DNA of 64,000 nt, from NCBI GenBank assembly GCA_002701385.1, contig NZVD01000052.1:713-64712 (forward strand), in the 5' to 3' direction. The DNA is from Rhodopirellula sp. (GTDB lineage Bacteria > Planctomycetota > Planctomycetia > Pirellulales > Pirellulaceae). Both the position numbers and the translations under genes were made by a program. Below the pieces are notes generated by a model. The model searched no databases, was not told the DNA's origin, and was given only the letters and a program-made list of their open reading frames with translations. Below, one piece after another: positions 53,252 through 63,970 of this stretch. Within the stretch, counting starts at the first letter, position 1; each line of letters opens with the position of its first letter.

Positions 53252-54205
53252 TTAGGTCATAATGGCTTGTATCAGATCGTCATGATACACCACACCGATC
53301 ACCTGATTACGAGCGTTCGTTACTCCAGCCAGAGGCAGGCGATTTTCTCTCATTTCCACAAGCGCTTCAGTCAATTGACAGGTCACTGGAAAGGTAGGTA
53401 GCGCACAATACTGTGCAATAGTCTGTTGATCGCGCAACCTCATTTCAATCATCGAGATGTACCCCACCGGATTCTTCCGATGTGATTTATAAACAACCAG
53501 TGTTGCCATTTGTGTCAGTTTCGCAGCCCGCTCCAACTCCTCTATCGTACTTTCAACATCCACCATATTGACCTGTGGCAGAGGTCGAAACAGTTCATTC
53601 AACGTGGCATTACTAGAAGCAAACAGACGTCTGGTCAGATCCCTTTGCCCGTGTGTCAGCAAACCTGCAATTTCACCGTCTTGAAGAACTCGCTGAAGCG
53701 ATTGCCGAGCCATTGTCAACTGGACTCTAAGCGGTGTTTCTCCGACCATTAGTTGGAGCACTTTAGCAAAGCACCAGAGGACTAAAGCGATCGGAGCAAA
53801 CAAAAGAACGAAGACTAAAAACAATGGCCCGATCGACCGAATCAGTCGATTCGGCGAGTCATTAAAGGTACTCTTCGGTAGGAGTTCGCCAAAGACAAAT
53901 ACAACTGGAGTAAAGAGAATGGAAACCAAGACTTCCGCATTTTGTGCCGGATACCACAATTGGCTGGCAAGCACGATTGCAAAAGACGTGAGATAATTGG
54001 CCAGATTATTTCCCACCAACGTCGTCGCCACGAATACCGACGGGTTGTTCGTCAACCACAATAAACGACGGGAAACAAAGTCCCCATCGCGACCATCTAA
54101 CACCAACCTGACGCGAGTAACTCGGTAAAAACCCGTTTCACTGCCACTGAAAAAGGCACTCAGTAACAACCCAAGTAACAGCAGTACTATGATCGCCCAA
54201 ATCAT
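53252..54205 (-). CDS. CNNM/CorC-like DUF21 protein, short form
   Basis: This 317-residue protein has a DUF21 membrane domain (about 1-185) with F-S-G-S-E-T-G-F-Y-R-V, V-G-N-N-L-A-N-Y and F-G-E-L-L-P-K-S, the signatures of CNNM-type transporters. The rest (215-310) resembles a CBS pair but is short, and no C-terminal CorC/HlyC domain is present. Its ATG overlaps the stop of the 427-residue paralogue (4 bases), so the pair is translationally coupled. The two may form a heteromer. A role in divalent cation efflux is taken from the family. Confidence 0.84.
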   Translation of the reverse strand: MIWAIIVLLLLGLLLSAFFSGSETGFYRVTRVRLVLDGRDGDFVSRRLLWLTNNPSVFVATTLVGNNLANYLTSFAIVLASQLWYPAQNAEVLVSILFTPVVFVFGELLPKSTFNDSPNRLIRSIGPLFLVFVLLFAPIALVLWCFAKVLQLMVGETPLRVQLTMARQSLQRVLQDGEIAGLLTHGQRDLTRRLFASSNATLNELFRPLPQVNMVDVESTIEELERAAKLTQMATLVVYKSHRKNPVGYISMIEMRLRDQQTIAQYCALPTFPVTCQLTEALVEMRENRLPLAGVTNARNQVIGVVYHDDLIQAIMT

Positions 54206-55485
54206 GAAGTCGGCCCCCGTGCGCCATCATGTCTGGAGTCTGGAGTTTGCTGATCACGAATCTTGACTTCCACTCGACAACGCCCTCGCTCGGCAGCCTC
54301 AATGACGTCCATTTCCAACGGACCCCATTGGCAATGATCACCTGTTTTAGGAAGAGCCTGCAAAACCTCCTGTAACACTCCCTGAATAGTGACGCTGCGC
54401 GTTTCCGGCAATACGACCTGAAGCTGTTTCTCGAGACGTTTCAATGTAGCTAATCCCATCACATGCCAAACCCCATCCTCGAGTAACTGAATCGGAGGTT
54501 CATCCGTGATGCGTCTGGTACGACTCGGAGCATCCACAAAGACAGCATCAGCGATGTCGTCGATTGTAATAATTCCGATTGTCTCACCATGTTCATTGAC
54601 GACATTGGCAACTTGCCGTTGTGTGGCACGAAGCTTTTCATAGACATCAGCAACACTGGCACACCAGGGAATCGTGACAAGCCTCTTACCCATTTGTGAA
54701 TACCCCGGCTTGAATTCGATCAAGTCATCAGCGTCAATCGAATATTGGATTTCCTCCGAACCCCTGTGGGTCACCAACACAAATCCACTGGGTGGGAATT
54801 TCTCTTTCAGGTCTTCAATCGTGACTGGCGCCTGGAAAGTCACAAATTGACGACGCGGGCGCATCCACTCATCTGCTCTTAATTGAGACAGGCTTACGAT
54901 GTTTCTCAACATTCGATATTCGTGAGGATCCAATTGCGCATCCTGTGTTGAAAGTTCCACAGCTCGTTCTATGTCGGACATTTCCAAATCAGGTTCAGGA
55001 GTGATTCTTGGGAAGAGCAAACGTTTCAAAAACAGATTAATAAATCGTAAGATAGGTAACAGAGGGTCAACACAGCGTACTGCCATAGCAAGGGGGAATG
55101 CCACTAACCCGGCATAACTACGACTACGCAAAACAGCAAAACTCTTCGGAAACATCTCACTGAAGAAGATCACTAGAAACAAGCTGACAAAAGCAAACAA
55201 GACTCCCCAGCCACCATCCTGTTCTTCCAATTGCATTCCAACTCTTGCGGAAATCGTGAAATAGATCATGTTGATCACGAGATTCCAAAAGAGAATAGCT
55301 GAGAGTAAGCGATCGGGCTGCTCCATCAGTCGAGCAGCCATACGTTGGGATGCATTTCCGGAGGCTAGGAAACGAAGGTCCTGCCGCTGCAAATAGAAAT
55401 AGGCAGCTTCACTAGCCGAAAATAACCCGGACAGCACAATTAGAATTGCCATGGAAGTCAGCCATGGCATAACCTCAGCCCACAC
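54202..55485 (-). CDS. CNNM/CorC-like DUF21-CBS protein
   Basis: The 427-residue product has an N-terminal DUF21 membrane domain (about 1-180; F-S-A-S-E-A-A-Y-F and F-S-E-M-F-P-K-S), then a CBS pair (about 205-330; I-G-I-I-T-I-D-D-I-A-D-A-V) and a CorC/HlyC-like C-terminal domain (about 345-415). This is the full-length CNNM/YfjD architecture. It is encoded upstream of, and overlapping by 4 bases, the shorter paralogue. Such proteins export Mg or other divalent cations, or regulate transport; neither is testable here. The gene is first in its operon. Confidence 0.87.
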   Translation of the reverse strand: MWAEVMPWLTSMAILIVLSGLFSASEAAYFYLQRQDLRFLASGNASQRMAARLMEQPDRLLSAILFWNLVINMIYFTISARVGMQLEEQDGGWGVLFAFVSLFLVIFFSEMFPKSFAVLRSRSYAGLVAFPLAMAVRCVDPLLPILRFINLFLKRLLFPRITPEPDLEMSDIERAVELSTQDAQLDPHEYRMLRNIVSLSQLRADEWMRPRRQFVTFQAPVTIEDLKEKFPPSGFVLVTHRGSEEIQYSIDADDLIEFKPGYSQMGKRLVTIPWCASVADVYEKLRATQRQVANVVNEHGETIGIITIDDIADAVFVDAPSRTRRITDEPPIQLLEDGVWHVMGLATLKRLEKQLQVVLPETRSVTIQGVLQEVLQALPKTGDHCQWGPLEMDVIEAAERGRCRVEVKIRDQQTPDSRHDGARGPTS

Positions 55486-56633: not shown

Positions 56634-57086
56634 ATGCCTAACGTGTTTGACCAAGCTGGAATTCGATTTATCTACCCAGACAACTGGACCGTCAACGAAA
56701 GCCAATTGGACGCCCAGCGATGTCAAAGCATCTCGTTGGAGAACGAAAGCTCGATCCAATGGAGCGTCTATATCTTTCCCGGCACTGAAAACCTCAACGA
56801 ATTAGTCGAAGAAACGATTCGCGCCATGCATATGGAGTACGAAGATCACGAAGAATCAGAGCCATACCGTCAAATGGCGGGAGAATTCGAACTGATTGGC
56901 AGCCGCATGTACTTTAACTTCATGGACTTCATCTTATGTATCACTGCGGTGGCCATTGAACATCAGGGGAAAAGCTACTTATTTGTGTCTGAAGCAGAAG
57001 ACCGTGAATTTGATGAAAATGAAGCTGTATTCAGCGCAATGGCCTTTAGCCTGCTGTCCCCCCAGACAACCATTCACTCGAATTAG
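56634..57086 (+). CDS. Small soluble protein, DcrB/PsbP-like fold suggested
   Basis: This 150-residue protein starts at an ATG following a GAGAA. It has F-D-Q-A-G-I-R-F-I-Y-P-D-N-W near the start, a pattern seen in DcrB/PsbP-like and DUF1795-type domains, and a late A-V-F-S-A-M-A-F-S-L-L. There is no signal peptide, so it is probably cytoplasmic. I cannot name a function. It is divergent from the TPR lipoprotein gene and precedes a 370-base region with a terminator and likely RNA, which could be its long 3' UTR or a separate transcript. Confidence 0.7.
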   Translation: MPNVFDQAGIRFIYPDNWTVNESQLDAQRCQSISLENESSIQWSVYIFPGTENLNELVEETIRAMHMEYEDHEESEPYRQMAGEFELIGSRMYFNFMDFILCITAVAIEHQGKSYLFVSEAEDREFDENEAVFSAMAFSLLSPQTTIHSN

Positions 57087-57556: not shown

Positions 57557-60500
57557 TTAATTGTCTTGGTTGTCTTGGTTGTCTTTATCTACTTGGTTGT
57601 CTTGGCTCTCGTCGTTGTCATAAAGGGGTAAGTGTCGGTAGTGAACTTCCAAGCTCAGTAGATTCATGGTCGTTACGTAGAGACGACCTGCGTGTGGTCC
57701 CCAACGATCCGGCACAGGCCGACGAGGATCCCAACTTCCCGCTAGATCGCCTTCGGGTTCCTGAGCGTTAATCAGCAAAGGGTGCAAGCGGTCATTCCAC
57801 CGCTTCCAATGCTCACCTCCCATGTGATACATGAATTGGGTCGCATAATACCAATAGTAAGTATCACGCAATGACGCATCTTTCGTTCGACGAATCGACG
57901 GAAGATTTTCACCGAGATACTGTGCGCCAGCGACTGCATATTCACTTTGCTTGTCCATCCCAGTGTATAGACGCATGAGCAATCCGACGCTGGTCATTGT
58001 CTTGGAAGGAACTCGCCCCTGGCCCTGCCTTGCATTGGCGGGTGCATAAGGGTTGTAAGAAAACATAAATGGTTTCTTCGCATTTTGAGCAGCGTCCACA
58101 AAATTCTTAATTCCATTATATGTCTCTTGAGGAATTTTCAATCCTGCGCGTTTACCACTCTCCACTGCCATCAACATCCAGCCAGTCACCGATAAATCGG
58201 ATTCTCTTCCAGGAGTATATCTCCACCCCCCACGTTCAACATGCTGAGATTCGACAATGAAATTCAGTGCTTGTTGTACAGAATCCTTGATTCGCGGATC
58301 CTGAGTCATCCCATAGGCTTCGCACATGGCAAGCGTCGCAATGGCATGACCATACAATCTAGCCACCTGATTACTCGGAGTCCCCTGAGCAATATAGTAA
58401 TCTCCGGTGGACTGTTGATGCGCTAGCATAAAATCTACAGAGCGTTGCAACAGATCTTTGTATTGATATTGCTGGTGATTGTATCCAGCCCCCTGAAATG
58501 CCAAGAGACATAATCCCGTCGCAGCAGTATCGCTATCGATCACACTAATTCCGTCGAACGCAGCAAACTGTTGTAACGACCAACTGCCATCACGCCGTTG
58601 AAATCGAGCGAGGAAAGCTAGCCCTTTCTCAATCGCCTCTTCCGTTTCAGGGCCAGCGGCACCATTACCACCTGCTCGTTCCTTCCGCCCTTCGAATGCT
58701 TCCTTTGCAATTGTCGCATGTGTATTTAACGCTGGCAGTGCCGCCATCCCTTCTCGTTGAAATCTTGAAGGACGTAACTGAATGGTTGCACTATCAACAT
58801 TGGCCCGGCGATCGGTAATACCTGCATCTGCCGCCAGTCTCTCACCCAATCCTCCCAGTCCTTCGTCTGCGGCAGCATTCACCGGAACTGGCTCCGCAAA
58901 TGGCTGAGCTACCGGGCCTTCCGTATACGCTCCAGCTAACTCTGAAGTTTCCATCTCACCTGGTGAAGGAGTTCCTGTATCAGCAACATCGGCAGCGACG
59001 GGGCCAAAATCGCCAAGAGTCGGGCCACCTCGTTCAGATCGCCCTACGGTGCTACCGCCAGCATCTGCGACCTGTTCACCAGTCCCTTCGGCATTAGACG
59101 ATTTTTCGTTTCGCTCACCCAACGCCGTACCGGCAACTTCAGCCTGCCCTTCCACGGTTGTATCGCCTGCGGGGCCACCTGAATCGGCGGTGTCGGTCTG
59201 AGCTCGTACTCCTCCCGGTGCGTCAGCAGATAGATCCGACTGAGCCACCATTTCACTACCGTCTGCAGCGCCTCCGGAATTGGGTGCGCCCTCGATCATG
59301 ATTTCCGGCACATCGGCTAACGCCTCTAACGGCGCTCCGCGACTGTTTCGCATTGGAGTCGCCGATCCTCCGCCTGCTTCTGTTTGACCGACTTCCGCAT
59401 CGGTAGCACTAACAGCACCTGCGGCTCGTTCAACCGCCTCAGCCATAGGACCGCTGGCTCCACCTGAATCTTCCAAAACTACTTTTGCATCTATTGCACC
59501 GCCTGTTTCTGCACGATCAACGGAGGCTTCCTCGCCTGAATCGCCACCGTTATCAGGACTCGCCGCAGCAACCGGTTCACCCTGAGCTTCCTCCGGTGCC
59601 GCCGCTTCAGCTCCAACATCAAGAGCCTCCAAAGCAAGTGCATTCTCTAATGTCGTGGTTCTCCCAACAGCTTGGCCTGTCGAAGCATCGTCTTCATCGA
59701 GCTGCGAAGATGCACCTTCCGGACCACTTCGAGCGTCATCGTTACGCGTCAATTCGCTTTGAGAGATTTGCCCCAAAGCTCCATCTTCTATTTCTTCCGA
59801 TTCGGTTTCTGATCGATCACCCGTGAGCGAAGCTAGTTCACCTGATTCCGCTTTAGCAGCCGCTTCTTCATTAGAGGTTAATGCGGAGGCTGCGGGAGCT
59901 CCATCCGCTCCAGCTGGCGCGGTTGCCATATCTGCCATGGTGTTGGTGGCTAATGCCTCAAAATTCCTTCCGCTTACATTTCGTGCCACTTCGGTGTTAT
60001 CAGACTCATTGCTTAATTGCTTTGCTCCACCTCCTGAGGCACGACTAAAACTTTCCTCCGAAGTCACATTGGGTTCTCCGGTATCGGCCGACGCCACTCC
60101 TGCCGCTGCATTCACATCTCCAGTCGCTGCATCTCTAGCTGCTGCAGTATCAGCACTTGCGGACGCTTCTAGTGTCTCCTGAGATGGTTGATTAGAAGCC
60201 AGCTGACCAGCATCAGCATTTGTATTTGGCTTCCGAATTGCCGACGCCACATCGCTTTGAGTTCGATTGCGTTGCACCTGAGAGGCCTGCGATGAACTAT
60301 CAGCATTTGCCTGTTGATTGCGAGTGGATTCTGCTCGGGCTGCTGCCGAATCCGAGACTTGTGCCTGACTGTCGGCTGCAGAGGAGAGTTGTGCCAAGTT
60401 TTCACCGGCGGCTGCTCCGGACTGTCCGGATTCTGCTTTAGAGGTCGCGCGTTGAGACTGTTCCAGAGATGGTGTATTGTTCACGGCAACTGCTGTCGCA

Positions 60501-62593
60501 TTGGCGGGAGTATCGGCGTTCGTCGGCGAGGCCAGATTAGCAGCAACCTGACTAGCTCGTTGTGGTGAATTATTTTGATTGGCTGACTCTGACTGACTCG
60601 TCTGTTGCGATTCCCGACGTTGCATCAAATTACTGCCTGAAGTGGTTTCCGCAGGATTATTATTCACGGCCGTCAGTTTTTGAATTTGATTACTAGCCTG
60701 ATTCGTATTCGTCCTGGCGACATTCCCCTGCGCCGCGTTGAGATTAGGCGTTTGTTGAGCCACTTGGTTAGGTCGCTGCACCGGCGTTGCCGTTGTTGTT
60801 GGATTCGAGATGCTGGTAGCAACATTCTGATTTCGGTTGATGGCGGCTTGTTGTGAATTCTGTGCATTTGGATTTGAAGGTTGCTTGCTGGAAACCGCAC
60901 GATCTGTCGTTTGAGCGGCAATCTTGACCGACGCATTTGAAGCATTCTCTGGATTCACCTGATTAGGAGTCCTTGTAGGAGAAGCCTGCTTTCGAGGCGT
61001 ATCTACCGCCGATGCTGTTAGCGTTTGAGCGGGTTTATTTGGCTGCCCTGGTGTCGCATCAGCGACAGGTTGGGCCATCGGATTCGTCGCTGCTACCTCT
61101 GTAGGTCTACGGTTAGGTGTCGCTGTGGCTGCATTCTCGGTCGGAGCATTTTCGGAACGCTGTTGCCGACTCACCGCCTCGGCCACTACTGTGGGACTTG
61201 GATTAGTAGCCGGTGCCTTCGAAGGAGTCGCTTGTGCATTATCCGTGTTGGCTCGCTGCGCTGTAGCAGTTGTTTTAGGTTCCACATTCGGTCTATTCTC
61301 AGCGACTGCACGGATGGGAGCCTCGACAGGTTTAACTTGAGGTACATCCCGAGGCACTTTTTGGGCTCGAGGATTGATGGCAGGTGTGGGCACTTTCGCC
61401 ACCGTCGTTTGCTCCCGATTAGGAGATTCCCGTTTTACTGTTTGTGTATCCGTTACCTGAGGCACGGTTGGGCTGGGTTCAACTTCTGCAGGACTACGTT
61501 GGGGTATCGCCGTCTTTTGCTGTTGAGCCAGTGTATTCTTAGGAGCCTCCAGAGGTGTTTCTTTAGCCTGTGTTTGGGTTGTCTGGTTAGGCACGGGAGT
61601 AACTTGAGTTTTAGGTAAATCAGCAAGTTTGGTTTCCTGCCGACTTGCTGATTTTTGCTGTGCGTCATTGGTAACCTGAGCGGTCTGACTTTGTGCTCGC
61701 TGAGTATTATTGGCGTCGGCTTTGACCGGTACATCGGCCTCGACAGGCACTGTCATTTTCTGGAGATTATCGGCAGACTGAGAGCGAGCAACATTTCGGG
61801 ACGGTGCTTCGGTTACCCGAGGTTGAGTAGGCTTTTGATTGTTTGTTGGCTGCACTACATCCGTTGCCACATTGTCCAACTTGGGAAGCTGTACCGAATT
61901 ACGACTCAACTTAGAAGTTGAGTCTGCCTGACGTGGTGTCGAATTTGCTGATTCTGTCCGCTTTTCAACAACCTCCGGCATCGGCTGAGGTTCGGTTTGC
62001 TCCACGGTAGGTTGTTGAATTTCTTTCGGGGCTTCAGTTTCCTGCTTGCGTTCCACCTCGGGAGGCTCCGGATCCGGGATCTCCGTATCCACCGGCTTCA
62101 GAAAATCTGGTTTCTCCACATTCTGTTGTTGATGGCTGGGGTGATACTCCAAACGTTTCTTCGGTTTCTTTTTCACCAATTGTTTCTGAGCAACGTCTCC
62201 TTGCCAGCCTTTTGAAAACACTTCACTTTCCAAAGCGTAAACGAGCATTCCCAGATGAATAATGGCGCACACAATTACCGAAAACTGCATGGTCCGTTTG
62301 AATCTCTTGTTATCGATATATCGAAAGGTAAGGATCGATGTGCAGATAAGGAGAAGTACGATTGCCAATGAAACCCAGGGACTCGCATACCAGGCTGCTT
62401 CCGGATCAAATGGCTGATAGGCGAAGATTCCCCCTACCAGAAATCCGCCCAGAACGACCAAAGCAATATTGACCGGCCATTGCTGCTCGTCAAACACCAC
62501 ACGCGTCCGGGGAATGTATCGGCGCACAATCTTATTGCGTACACTCACTCGTTCCTGAATGCGAATATCGTCGAATTGCGATGGTTCATTCAT
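57557..62593 (-). CDS. Giant TonB-like protein with disordered linker and alpha/alpha-toroid
   Basis: A 1678-residue protein. Three membrane helices (about 42-60, 72-91, 103-122) are followed by a K-K-K-P-K-K-R segment and a Pro-rich E-I-P-D-P-E-P-P stretch like the periplasmic part of TonB. Residues about 180-790 are low-complexity, rich in Gln, Asn, Thr, Ala and Pro; about 790-1290 are rich in Ala, Gly, Glu, Asp and Ser. The C-terminal domain (about 1310-1650) resembles the prenyltransferase/squalene-cyclase toroid, with F-Q-R-R-D-G-S-W and G-G-W-R-Y; the DxDD of hopene cyclases reads D-S-D-T. The 3' end encodes N-Q-D repeats. Genes for ExbD and ExbB precede it on the same strand. Confidence 0.8.
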   Translation of the reverse strand: MNEPSQFDDIRIQERVSVRNKIVRRYIPRTRVVFDEQQWPVNIALVVLGGFLVGGIFAYQPFDPEAAWYASPWVSLAIVLLLICTSILTFRYIDNKRFKRTMQFSVIVCAIIHLGMLVYALESEVFSKGWQGDVAQKQLVKKKPKKRLEYHPSHQQQNVEKPDFLKPVDTEIPDPEPPEVERKQETEAPKEIQQPTVEQTEPQPMPEVVEKRTESANSTPRQADSTSKLSRNSVQLPKLDNVATDVVQPTNNQKPTQPRVTEAPSRNVARSQSADNLQKMTVPVEADVPVKADANNTQRAQSQTAQVTNDAQQKSASRQETKLADLPKTQVTPVPNQTTQTQAKETPLEAPKNTLAQQQKTAIPQRSPAEVEPSPTVPQVTDTQTVKRESPNREQTTVAKVPTPAINPRAQKVPRDVPQVKPVEAPIRAVAENRPNVEPKTTATAQRANTDNAQATPSKAPATNPSPTVVAEAVSRQQRSENAPTENAATATPNRRPTEVAATNPMAQPVADATPGQPNKPAQTLTASAVDTPRKQASPTRTPNQVNPENASNASVKIAAQTTDRAVSSKQPSNPNAQNSQQAAINRNQNVATSISNPTTTATPVQRPNQVAQQTPNLNAAQGNVARTNTNQASNQIQKLTAVNNNPAETTSGSNLMQRRESQQTSQSESANQNNSPQRASQVAANLASPTNADTPANATAVAVNNTPSLEQSQRATSKAESGQSGAAAGENLAQLSSAADSQAQVSDSAAARAESTRNQQANADSSSQASQVQRNRTQSDVASAIRKPNTNADAGQLASNQPSQETLEASASADTAAARDAATGDVNAAAGVASADTGEPNVTSEESFSRASGGGAKQLSNESDNTEVARNVSGRNFEALATNTMADMATAPAGADGAPAASALTSNEEAAAKAESGELASLTGDRSETESEEIEDGALGQISQSELTRNDDARSGPEGASSQLDEDDASTGQAVGRTTTLENALALEALDVGAEAAAPEEAQGEPVAAASPDNGGDSGEEASVDRAETGGAIDAKVVLEDSGGASGPMAEAVERAAGAVSATDAEVGQTEAGGGSATPMRNSRGAPLEALADVPEIMIEGAPNSGGAADGSEMVAQSDLSADAPGGVRAQTDTADSGGPAGDTTVEGQAEVAGTALGERNEKSSNAEGTGEQVADAGGSTVGRSERGGPTLGDFGPVAADVADTGTPSPGEMETSELAGAYTEGPVAQPFAEPVPVNAAADEGLGGLGERLAADAGITDRRANVDSATIQLRPSRFQREGMAALPALNTHATIAKEAFEGRKERAGGNGAAGPETEEAIEKGLAFLARFQRRDGSWSLQQFAAFDGISVIDSDTAATGLCLLAFQGAGYNHQQYQYKDLLQRSVDFMLAHQQSTGDYYIAQGTPSNQVARLYGHAIATLAMCEAYGMTQDPRIKDSVQQALNFIVESQHVERGGWRYTPGRESDLSVTGWMLMAVESGKRAGLKIPQETYNGIKNFVDAAQNAKKPFMFSYNPYAPANARQGQGRVPSKTMTSVGLLMRLYTGMDKQSEYAVAGAQYLGENLPSIRRTKDASLRDTYYWYYATQFMYHMGGEHWKRWNDRLHPLLINAQEPEGDLAGSWDPRRPVPDRWGPHAGRLYVTTMNLLSLEVHYRHLPLYDNDESQDNQVDKDNQDNQDN
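57561..57605. repeat. 9-bp tandem repeat at the 3' end of the giant gene
   Basis: TTGTCTTGG occurs at 57561-57569 and 57570-57578, with a variant from 57579 and another copy ending at 57605. On the minus strand it encodes N-Q-D-type repeats at the very C terminus. It could vary in copy number by slippage. Confidence 0.75.
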
Positions 62594-62602
62594 CGGAATT
62601 CT

Positions 62603-63013
62603 CTATTCCTCGGTAGCAATCGTGTAATCATGAATACCTGCTGTGTTGCAAAGATTCATGGCATTAGCAACATATTGAAAGGGTACTCGTTGATCAGCAC
62701 GGATGATGACCGTCTGTCCAAGCGGATTGGACGCCACGGATTCGTTGAGAACGAGTAACAGCCCGGTATCATCGAGTGTTTGTCCACCTACGAAATAGTT
62801 TCCATCACGAGTAATATTAATCGCAATTTCATTCGGTTCTGCAGTGACCGCCGCAGCTGTACTGGCAGAAGGCAACAGTACGTCCAGTTCACGATCTTCC
62901 TGAGCAAACCGAGTAGCAACCAAAAAGAACACGAGCAGCAGGAACACCACATCAATCAGTGGTGTGAGACTCAAGGTCCCCAATGCTCGGCTATTCTTAA
63001 TTTTGACTGCCAT
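62603..63013 (-). CDS. ExbD/TolR-family protein
   Basis: The 136-residue product fits ExbD/TolR: one N-terminal membrane helix (about 17-38) carrying the essential-type Asp as L-T-P-L-I-D21-V-V-F-L-L-L, then a periplasmic domain. Its gene lies 9 bases upstream of the giant protein gene and 51 bases downstream of ExbB. The conserved Asp implies a working proton channel with ExbB, so proton-motive energy should be available for the giant partner. TolR is the alternative name, but no Tol or Pal gene is next to it in this window. Confidence 0.92.
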   Translation of the reverse strand: MAVKIKNSRALGTLSLTPLIDVVFLLLVFFLVATRFAQEDRELDVLLPSASTAAAVTAEPNEIAINITRDGNYFVGGQTLDDTGLLLVLNESVASNPLGQTVIIRADQRVPFQYVANAMNLCNTAGIHDYTIATEE

Positions 63014-63064
63014 GGTTCTGGTTTAATCCTCAACGAAACGGCTAATCATTAGCCCGGAAACTCG

Positions 63065-63970
63065 TTAACTTTCTGCGGACTCCTCTGACGCTTCAGCTTC
63101 ATCCACATTCGTAAATCGCATTCGACCCTCAAAGCGTTCAATTTGCGGCATTAGGCTAAAAAGCAACTCGTCCACTTCGTGAAAAAGCCTTTGCAACTTC
63201 CCTTCCAGGTAATGCGAAAACACGGCGGCGGGAATAGCAACCAGCAAGCCACAAAGTGTTGTCACTAATGCCACATATATACCTTCCGCTAAAAAGTCTG
63301 CTTTATTGACTCCTTGAGGAAGCCCTGTCGTATCGTGAAAAGCTTGAATCATTCCCCAAACAGTCCCCAACAATCCCATTAACGGAGTCACTGCGGCAGC
63401 CAGATTGAGCCATCGCACATTGGAGTACAACCGGTCTGCTTCCCGTTCACTTGCCTCTGTAGTGGAGCGATCGACCTCAGCTTGGGGGCGTCCAACTTTC
63501 ACCAACATGGCTCGGATGACCGAGGCAGCCGCGGATGGATACCTTTGGCAAAGTCGGTAAGCGGCACGAGGATCAAATTGCCCCTGCTCTTCGGCAAGTA
63601 ATCCCAACTCGGCCACGAGCATCCCTGGAATAACTCGATCCCGCCGCAATGCCATGGATCGTTCGATAACAAAGGTAACCGTCACTAAGGACATCAATCC
63701 GATGGGGATCGTAAATGCCCCTCCCTGAACAATCAGGGAAAAGATATTAATCCCTTCTGCTTCTAAATTATCAACAACTCCATCTTCCGTCACTTCGACA
63801 CCAACCGCCTGATCACTGGTGGCATCGCTTCCGGCTGTCGGACCTGCTGAATTCTCCTGAGCTCTCAGGACGTGGGCAGGGATGCTCCATGCCATGGTCA
63901 TCAGCACGATCGCCAAAACTGCTGTTGCTACTCTTTTCACTCTGTTCAATTTAAAACTCTCGCGACTCAT
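63065..63970 (-). CDS. ExbB/MotA/TolQ-family proton-channel protein
   Basis: This 301-residue protein has an N-terminal signal or helix (about 13-35, ending L-R-A-Q-E-N). The TolQ/ExbB core follows: helices near 82-103 and 180-205, with A-A-A-V-T-P-L-M-G-L-L-G-T-V-W-G-M-I-Q-A-F, and L-V-T-T-L-C-G-L-L-V-A-I-P in the last helix. It resembles the ExbB type with a cleavable or extra N-terminal segment. It is the first visible gene of the module; only 30 bases precede it in the window, so further upstream partners cannot be seen. Confidence 0.92.
   Translation of the reverse strand: MSRESFKLNRVKRVATAVLAIVLMTMAWSIPAHVLRAQENSAGPTAGSDATSDQAVGVEVTEDGVVDNLEAEGINIFSLIVQGGAFTIPIGLMSLVTVTFVIERSMALRRDRVIPGMLVAELGLLAEEQGQFDPRAAYRLCQRYPSAAASVIRAMLVKVGRPQAEVDRSTTEASEREADRLYSNVRWLNLAAAVTPLMGLLGTVWGMIQAFHDTTGLPQGVNKADFLAEGIYVALVTTLCGLLVAIPAAVFSHYLEGKLQRLFHEVDELLFSLMPQIERFEGRMRFTNVDEAEASEESAES

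Follow-up and report, generated by a model that had tools for sequence, protein, structure and literature searches.

The gene set at the window edge

We analyzed a 64,000-nucleotide stretch of contig NZVD01000052.1 of Rhodopirellula sp. (hereafter the window), near the end of which three consecutive genes encode an ExbB/TolQ-like protein, an ExbD/TolR-like protein and a giant protein that resembles TonB in its anatomy and ends in a predicted alpha/alpha-toroid (Table 1). A first-pass annotation, made from the sequence alone, had given the open reading frames (ORFs) and lengths of these genes and the gaps of 51 and 9 bases between them, all of which proved correct; its outline of the giant, with membrane helices, a basic start, a linker of >1100 residues and a C-terminal toroid, was borne out by hydropathy, by profile matches and by the lack of TonB_C. 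A gene for a tetratricopeptide repeat (TPR) protein, located just beyond the window, is the fourth member of the set. Its product matches TPR_16 (2.4e-45) and, more weakly, YfiO (1e-10), and has a signal-peptide-like N-terminus without a lipobox in the first 45 residues. The giant closes the set, because the nearest ORF beyond it (56634-57086) runs on the opposite, plus strand. In ExbB, the threonines of GLLGT and ALVTT are invariant among six orthologues.

Table 1. Features of the gene set and of the giant protein; positions refer to the window, except for the TPR gene
Feature	Position	Strand	Evidence or remark
TPR protein, 919 residues, beyond the window	L022:2726-5485	-	42 bases upstream of ExbB
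ExbB/TolQ-like motor subunit, 301 residues	63065..63970	-	MotA_ExbB 5.6e-26 (Pfam)
ExbD/TolR-like motor subunit, 136 residues	62603..63013	-	ExbD 6.2e-28 (Pfam); membrane Asp in LTPLIDVVFLLL
Toroid-headed TonB-like giant, 1678 residues	57557..62593	-	Final gene of the set
Giant, N-terminal part, residues 1-160: three predicted membrane helices and a basic stretch	62114..62593	-	Hydropathy
Giant, third helix, residues 103-121, with Cys109-x3-His113 in place of SxxxH	62231..62287	-	Distant orthologues have SLLFH, SLFLH, SLLVH
Giant, candidate motor box, LEYH (148-151) and DFLKPVDTE (163-171)	62081..62152	-	Aligned with TLPDYH...EKPV in orthologues
Giant, linker, residues 161-1300	58694..62113	-	17% Ala, rich in P/Q/N/S/T
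Giant, predicted alpha/alpha-toroid head, residues 1301-1660	57614..58693	-	Sequence profiles

The order TPR-ExbB-ExbD-giant was found to be kept in 6/6 close relatives when their genome contigs were searched. The class is represented by 198 genomes, 43 of which were matched at E<=1e-55 by a profile of ExbB built from six loci of the module; these include all 24 genomes listed for the same family. Since the query came from those six loci, the counts that follow cover orthologues of the window's ExbB only. Among the 43 ExbB loci examined, which represent 42 genomes with that of the window excluded, ExbD is the next gene in 34 and is itself followed by a toroid protein in 30; a TPR gene lies upstream in 36, and the complete four-gene order is present in 26. 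Thirteen loci are without the toroid protein: four reach the contig end, and three of these four show the three-helix start with SxxxH; one (L051) carries a different head; four belong to a genus (g2) in which the set is split, with TPR-ExbB apart from ExbD-giant and with ExbD and the giant together in 2/2 genomes checked (L157, L158); two have their giant elsewhere, with no motor genes in the stretch examined (L159, L161); and L146 and L148, which fit none of these cases, are the remaining two. A profile of the giant's N-terminal part (A2) matched 7 of 392 genomes of the phylum, the matches in G251 and G266 looking spurious; the figure of seven is an undercount, because A2 misses orthologues that were found later by the ExbB profile.

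By the first-pass annotation, a canonical tonB located elsewhere with the same ExbB and ExbD would have spoken against its reading. Genome-wide, TonB_C gave one match over its cut-off, on contig C48, where tonB is accompanied by two TonB-dependent receptors and adjoins an ExbB and ExbD of its own; it therefore does not share those of the window, and canonical TonB was rejected as their arm. The genome has only two matches to PF00593, both beside the canonical tonB, which makes a TonB-dependent receptor an unlikely partner for the giant. TonB_C was detected in 10 of 25 module genomes, a subset of the 42 with ExbB loci, so the module is independent of detectable canonical TonB.

The best NCBIfam models were tolQ for ExbB (1.6e-17) and tolR for ExbD (2.4e-16), each under the cut-off of its model. 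That these models outscore exbB and exbD would suit a Tol-Pal-like system, in which the motor would correspond to TolQR, the giant to TolA and the TPR protein to CpoB, and the outer membrane would be held at division. The periplasmic TPR protein of the set also counts towards such a system, because CpoB is a TPR protein (PMC12204202). However, the tolQ, tolR, exbB and exbD scores are all far under their cut-offs and the giant's head is not TolA-like. TolB_N gave zero matches in the genome at E<=1, and neither pal nor tolB occurs in the neighbourhood examined, Pal not having been searched for genome-wide. We consider a Tol-Pal-like role to be distinctly improbable.

Arm and head of the giant

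Residues 1-160 of the giant have 90% mean column identity among seven sequences. Hydrophobic helices are predicted at residues 41-59, 72-90 and 103-121 and are followed by KKKPKKR at 141-147 (numbered as in the relative L039, whose alignment with the window is free of gaps here), and because basic residues precede helix 1 and separate helices 2 and 3, the protein is predicted to have an N-in, C-out topology. The last helix, which has SxxxH in distant orthologues, reads CAIIH or CAIVH in the clade of the window. A [ST]xxxH motif within a predicted helix was found in 30 of 39 ExbD-linked toroid proteins and in 47 of the 62 helix-bearing unlinked ones, as against 12 of 237 control proteins taken from these loci; any His in the helix occurs in 37/39 and 35/237 of the ExbD-linked and control proteins, respectively. 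Six of the ExbD-linked proteins that miss the motif are close relatives with Cys. All these motif counts come from related sequences and are thus not independent events.

Two conserved elements follow the helix in those giants that have a transmembrane His. The first (TLPDYH, EFTLPDYA or VVIPDYSP; LEYH in the window) lies around 34 residues past the His and is present in 26/35, compared with 5/7200 linker windows taken as a control, and the second (DFLKPV, DWSKPV or EYEQPV) is present in 29/35. The motor box of TonB and TolA sits at the matching position behind the helix (PMC12204202), and we regard the conserved segment as a candidate motor box.

The linker of ~1140 residues is near neutral in its first half and acidic and Gly-rich in its second. 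Against three relatives, with synonymous substitutions close to saturation or past it, nonsynonymous divergence (dN) amounts to 0.04-0.07 for the membrane and toroid regions and to 0.14-0.23 for the linker, which indicates that the linker is constrained coding sequence. This constraint, together with a length of the giant that is kept at 1580-1690 residues within the genus (seven sequences), might suggest a passive tether or ruler, in which linker and toroid would fix the distance between the membranes and the arm would make no use of the motor. Across ExbD-linked toroid proteins, however, the linker is anywhere between 226 and 1188 residues long depending on the genus, unlike a ruler, and neither the linkage to ExbD nor the motor motif would be explained, so that a passive tether appears very improbable. 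An extended chain measures ~0.36 nm per residue. Because the extended linker could reach far beyond any periplasm, its length is more likely to provide slack or a capture radius than to match a distance.

Pfam SQHop_cyclase_C matched residues 1352-1471 of the giant at 1.7e-5 (24.5 bits, with a curated cut-off of 26.1). A profile of 39 heads of the family placed squalene-hopene cyclase first (1.7e-21), followed by other terpene cyclases and, lower down, mosquito TEP1 (9e-6) and pectate lyase (6.6e-5), and on these profiles the head is assigned to the alpha/alpha-toroid fold. A Pfam scan gave no TonB_C (PF03544) in the giant, and neither that scan nor the head profile gave a vWA (von Willebrand factor A) match in its head. 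The first-pass reading of the giant as a TonB-like coupler is well supported by anatomy and linkage; the head itself is of neither the TonB_C nor the TolA type.

Thirteen head positions are identical in 36/36 heads with a transmembrane arm, including Y1414, E1425, S1468, W1472, Y1513, E1649 and R1653. The homology of the head family to enzymes of the alpha/alpha-toroid fold, the large number of polar and aromatic residues that stay identical (Y1414, H1416, E1425, D1466, S1468, R1637 and E1649) and the presence of armless, soluble paralogues in the genome (L028-L030) would be compatible with a tethered enzyme. In that case ExbB and ExbD would merely position a catalytic toroid (a terpenoid cyclase, polysaccharide lyase or glycosidase by type) that is kept at the inner membrane. 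The catalytic motif of squalene-hopene cyclase is DxDDT. This motif occurs in 0/119 heads (the letters DxDD are found somewhere in 16/119), and terpenoid cyclase activity was rejected for this reason; nor was the CGEQ thioester motif found in the 119 heads. Furthermore, the three armless toroids of the genome have other residues in place of E1425, W1472 and E1649, and as W1472 and E1649 are identical in the 36 armed heads but different in the three soluble ones, an arm-specific role can be argued for both. The SxxxH helix would also be left unexplained, and we judge a tethered enzyme to be unlikely. The invariant residues may instead mark a cavity or face used for binding, as opposed to the active site of a cyclase. 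In the genus of G369 and G564, the set TPR-ExbB-ExbD-arm is the same, but the arm terminates in an unrelated domain of ~260 residues (L051:5016-7892, L162:3966-6941), for which, in G369, we found no Pfam match at 0.01 and no relative in the PDB (best 0.38).

Toroid proteins across the phylum

When 40 genomes spread over the phylum were scanned with the toroid profile (E<=1e-10), 38 of them gave between 1 and 24 matches apiece, and the toroid-headed family is apparently phylum-wide. From the best matches listed in the 40 genomes we picked 60 loci by hand (L054-L113; 31 genomes, 75 toroid ORFs). Sixty-eight of the 75 toroid ORFs have >80 residues ahead of the head, and 60 of these 68 have a helix. 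Among the 60 helix-bearing ORFs, [ST]xxxH is present in 45 and the linker measures 85-135 residues in 52. The 'long reach' proposed for the giant at first pass accordingly applies to the ExbD-linked proteins and not to most of this set of listed matches. Likewise, the expectation that homologues would adjoin ExbB and ExbD held for the direct orthologues and failed in the wider family, in which ExbD directly precedes the toroid gene in 1/60 loci picked among the matches listed. Unlinked toroid arms would borrow ExbBD sets encoded elsewhere.

The genome of the window contains two motor-linked toroid arms (that of the window and one on C82), three unlinked arms (C8, C16 and C22) and the three bare toroids L028-L030. 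The second motor-linked arm (L027:611-3697) has 622 residues and an SVFAH helix, and its relatives in L065, L122 and L152 share a clade of their own. Motor-linked heads fall into two clades, of 36 rows (Shimodaira-Hasegawa-like approximate likelihood-ratio test, SH-aLRT, 95) and 4 rows (98), in a quick tree built from 119 heads, a sample enriched for the larger clade through the ExbB search.

A SurA-like gene precedes the unlinked toroid gene in 11 of the 60 picked loci (L057, L070, L072, L073, L074, L076, L080, L082, L084, L096 and L100), which come from 11 genomes with differing family labels. The gene mfd lies further upstream in 9/11, with RNase III before mfd in some. When the surroundings of unlinked toroid genes were compared for recurrent genes, the Mfd and SurA-like clusters emerged, all others being small. 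Five of the 11 loci served as seeds for the SurA-like profile; a Pfam PPIase domain is over the cut-off in three of the five and a weak match in two. The profile detected no SurA-like gene in motor-linked toroid loci. SurA-type proteins handle outer-membrane proteins, and the arrangement is a clue to function that points to the envelope.

Other gene groups of this genome were recorded alongside. A 1799-residue protein with an N-terminal helix is encoded directly ahead of the unlinked arm on C8 (L024:508-5907). At L033:4546-9089, genes for a secreted-looking toroid-like protein (SQHop_cyclase_C 1.1e-4, under the cut-off), a one-helix protein, ExbB and two ExbD lie in a row. On the contig of the window, ~24 kb from its set, there are genes for ExbB, two ExbD, a small membrane protein and a DUF4159 protein (L023:5682-9668), and two adjoining CorC/CNNM-like membrane proteins are encoded at 53252-55485 of the window, the second with a CNNM match of 1.9e-25.

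Proposed mechanism and known systems

The giant is probably a force transducer with a toroid head, driven by the proton-motive force and working like the Ton and Tol machines. From the parts, linkage, motifs and conservation of the set documented in these sequences, we infer the docking on the motor, the transfer of force and the kind of partner. ExbB-ExbD would conduct protons across the inner membrane; the last helix of the giant, by way of its conserved His, would dock on the ExbB pentamer, and the segment directly behind this helix would engage ExbD. The long flexible linker would then bring the toroid across the periplasm, where it would bind a partner other than a TonB-dependent receptor and pull or remodel it. 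Such a partner could be the TPR protein, a component of the outer membrane or a polysaccharide of the envelope.

Several observations weigh against such a transducer. The window's own clade has Cys in place of the motif Ser, 3/39 ExbD-linked proteins have no [STCA]xxxH or AxxxH only, and the SHLS motif is otherwise poorly kept, with Leu at +7 in 30/85 and Ser at +11 in 3/85. Eight of the 43 ExbB loci have no adjoining giant despite ample contig, and in G498 and G502 (L159, L161) the giant lies elsewhere, without ExbB and ExbD in the stretch examined. The AlphaFold2 model of the head, computed from seven sequences, was poor (mean predicted local distance difference test score, pLDDT, 38), and a Foldseek search with it gave no match at E<=0.001; its top matches (MstE cyclase, the best at 0.049, GH76 and complement C4/C5) are a hint at most. 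No partner of the toroid was found.

A broader proposal, which we offer tentatively and at somewhat short of an even chance, is that toroid proteins may form a third large class of envelope transducers driven by the proton-motive force beside the TonB/TolA and vWA types, outnumbering canonical TonB in the phylum. This class would comprise long, motor-linked arms and short, motor-borrowing arms, some of them behind a SurA-like gene, with the toroid acting as a grip in outer-envelope assembly or macromolecule handling and with motor, arm and head being exchangeable. If true, the Ton, Tol and vWA systems would represent only part of the proton-driven machines that reach across the envelope, and a different grip would predominate in planctomycetes; in the genome studied here, two TonB-dependent receptors were detected, versus at least five armed toroid proteins. 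The set would be a candidate for coupling inner-membrane energy outward in planctomycetes, with their unusual envelope, for which macromolecule uptake has been reported (PMC5394234). Many genes now named after squalene cyclase or prenyltransferase repeats would gain a functional label.

We found no description of toroid heads in the open-licence literature on TonB/ExbB with squalene/toroid and planctomycetes, and nothing usable in that on planctomycete essential genes. The first-pass remark that no system of this combination was known therefore stands for the toroid head but not for the architecture as a whole. According to Williams-Jones et al. (2025; PMC12204202), vWA-headed TonB/TolA-like transducers are encoded beside TPR, tolQ and two tolR genes, Planctomycetes included; the words toroid, squalene and cyclase are absent from its main text. 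These transducers are a precedent for alternative heads, the toroid head being the new element. They share with the window's set the TolQ/TolR-like motor genes, the TPR gene, a disordered linker ahead of an alternative globular head, an SHLS-type helix and a motor box behind it, the last two being candidates from sequence in the giant. They differ in their head (vWA versus a predicted alpha/alpha-toroid), in their pair of tolR-like genes versus one ExbD, and in having one helix and a domain II of ~100 residues, compared with three helices and ~1140 residues in the giant. The window's genome also has a candidate of the vWA type (L032:3571-4665; SVGIH helix, VWA_2 2.2e-7), with ExbB and two ExbD nearby (L032:3571-7512).

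Among the classical systems, ExbB-ExbD-TonB is similar in its motor genes, motif-bearing helix, Pro-rich linker and C-terminal globular head, whereas the window's set is without a TonB_C head and a nearby receptor, the canonical set being separate on C48. TolQ-TolR-TolA is similar in the subfamily scores of the motor and in the TPR partner, but the genome is without a TolB match and the head is different. With the C-terminal domain of squalene-hopene cyclase and other toroids, the giant appears to share the fold family of its head and repeats of the QxxxGxW type; its head differs from the cyclase in being a single domain, without DxDDT, on a membrane-anchored arm.

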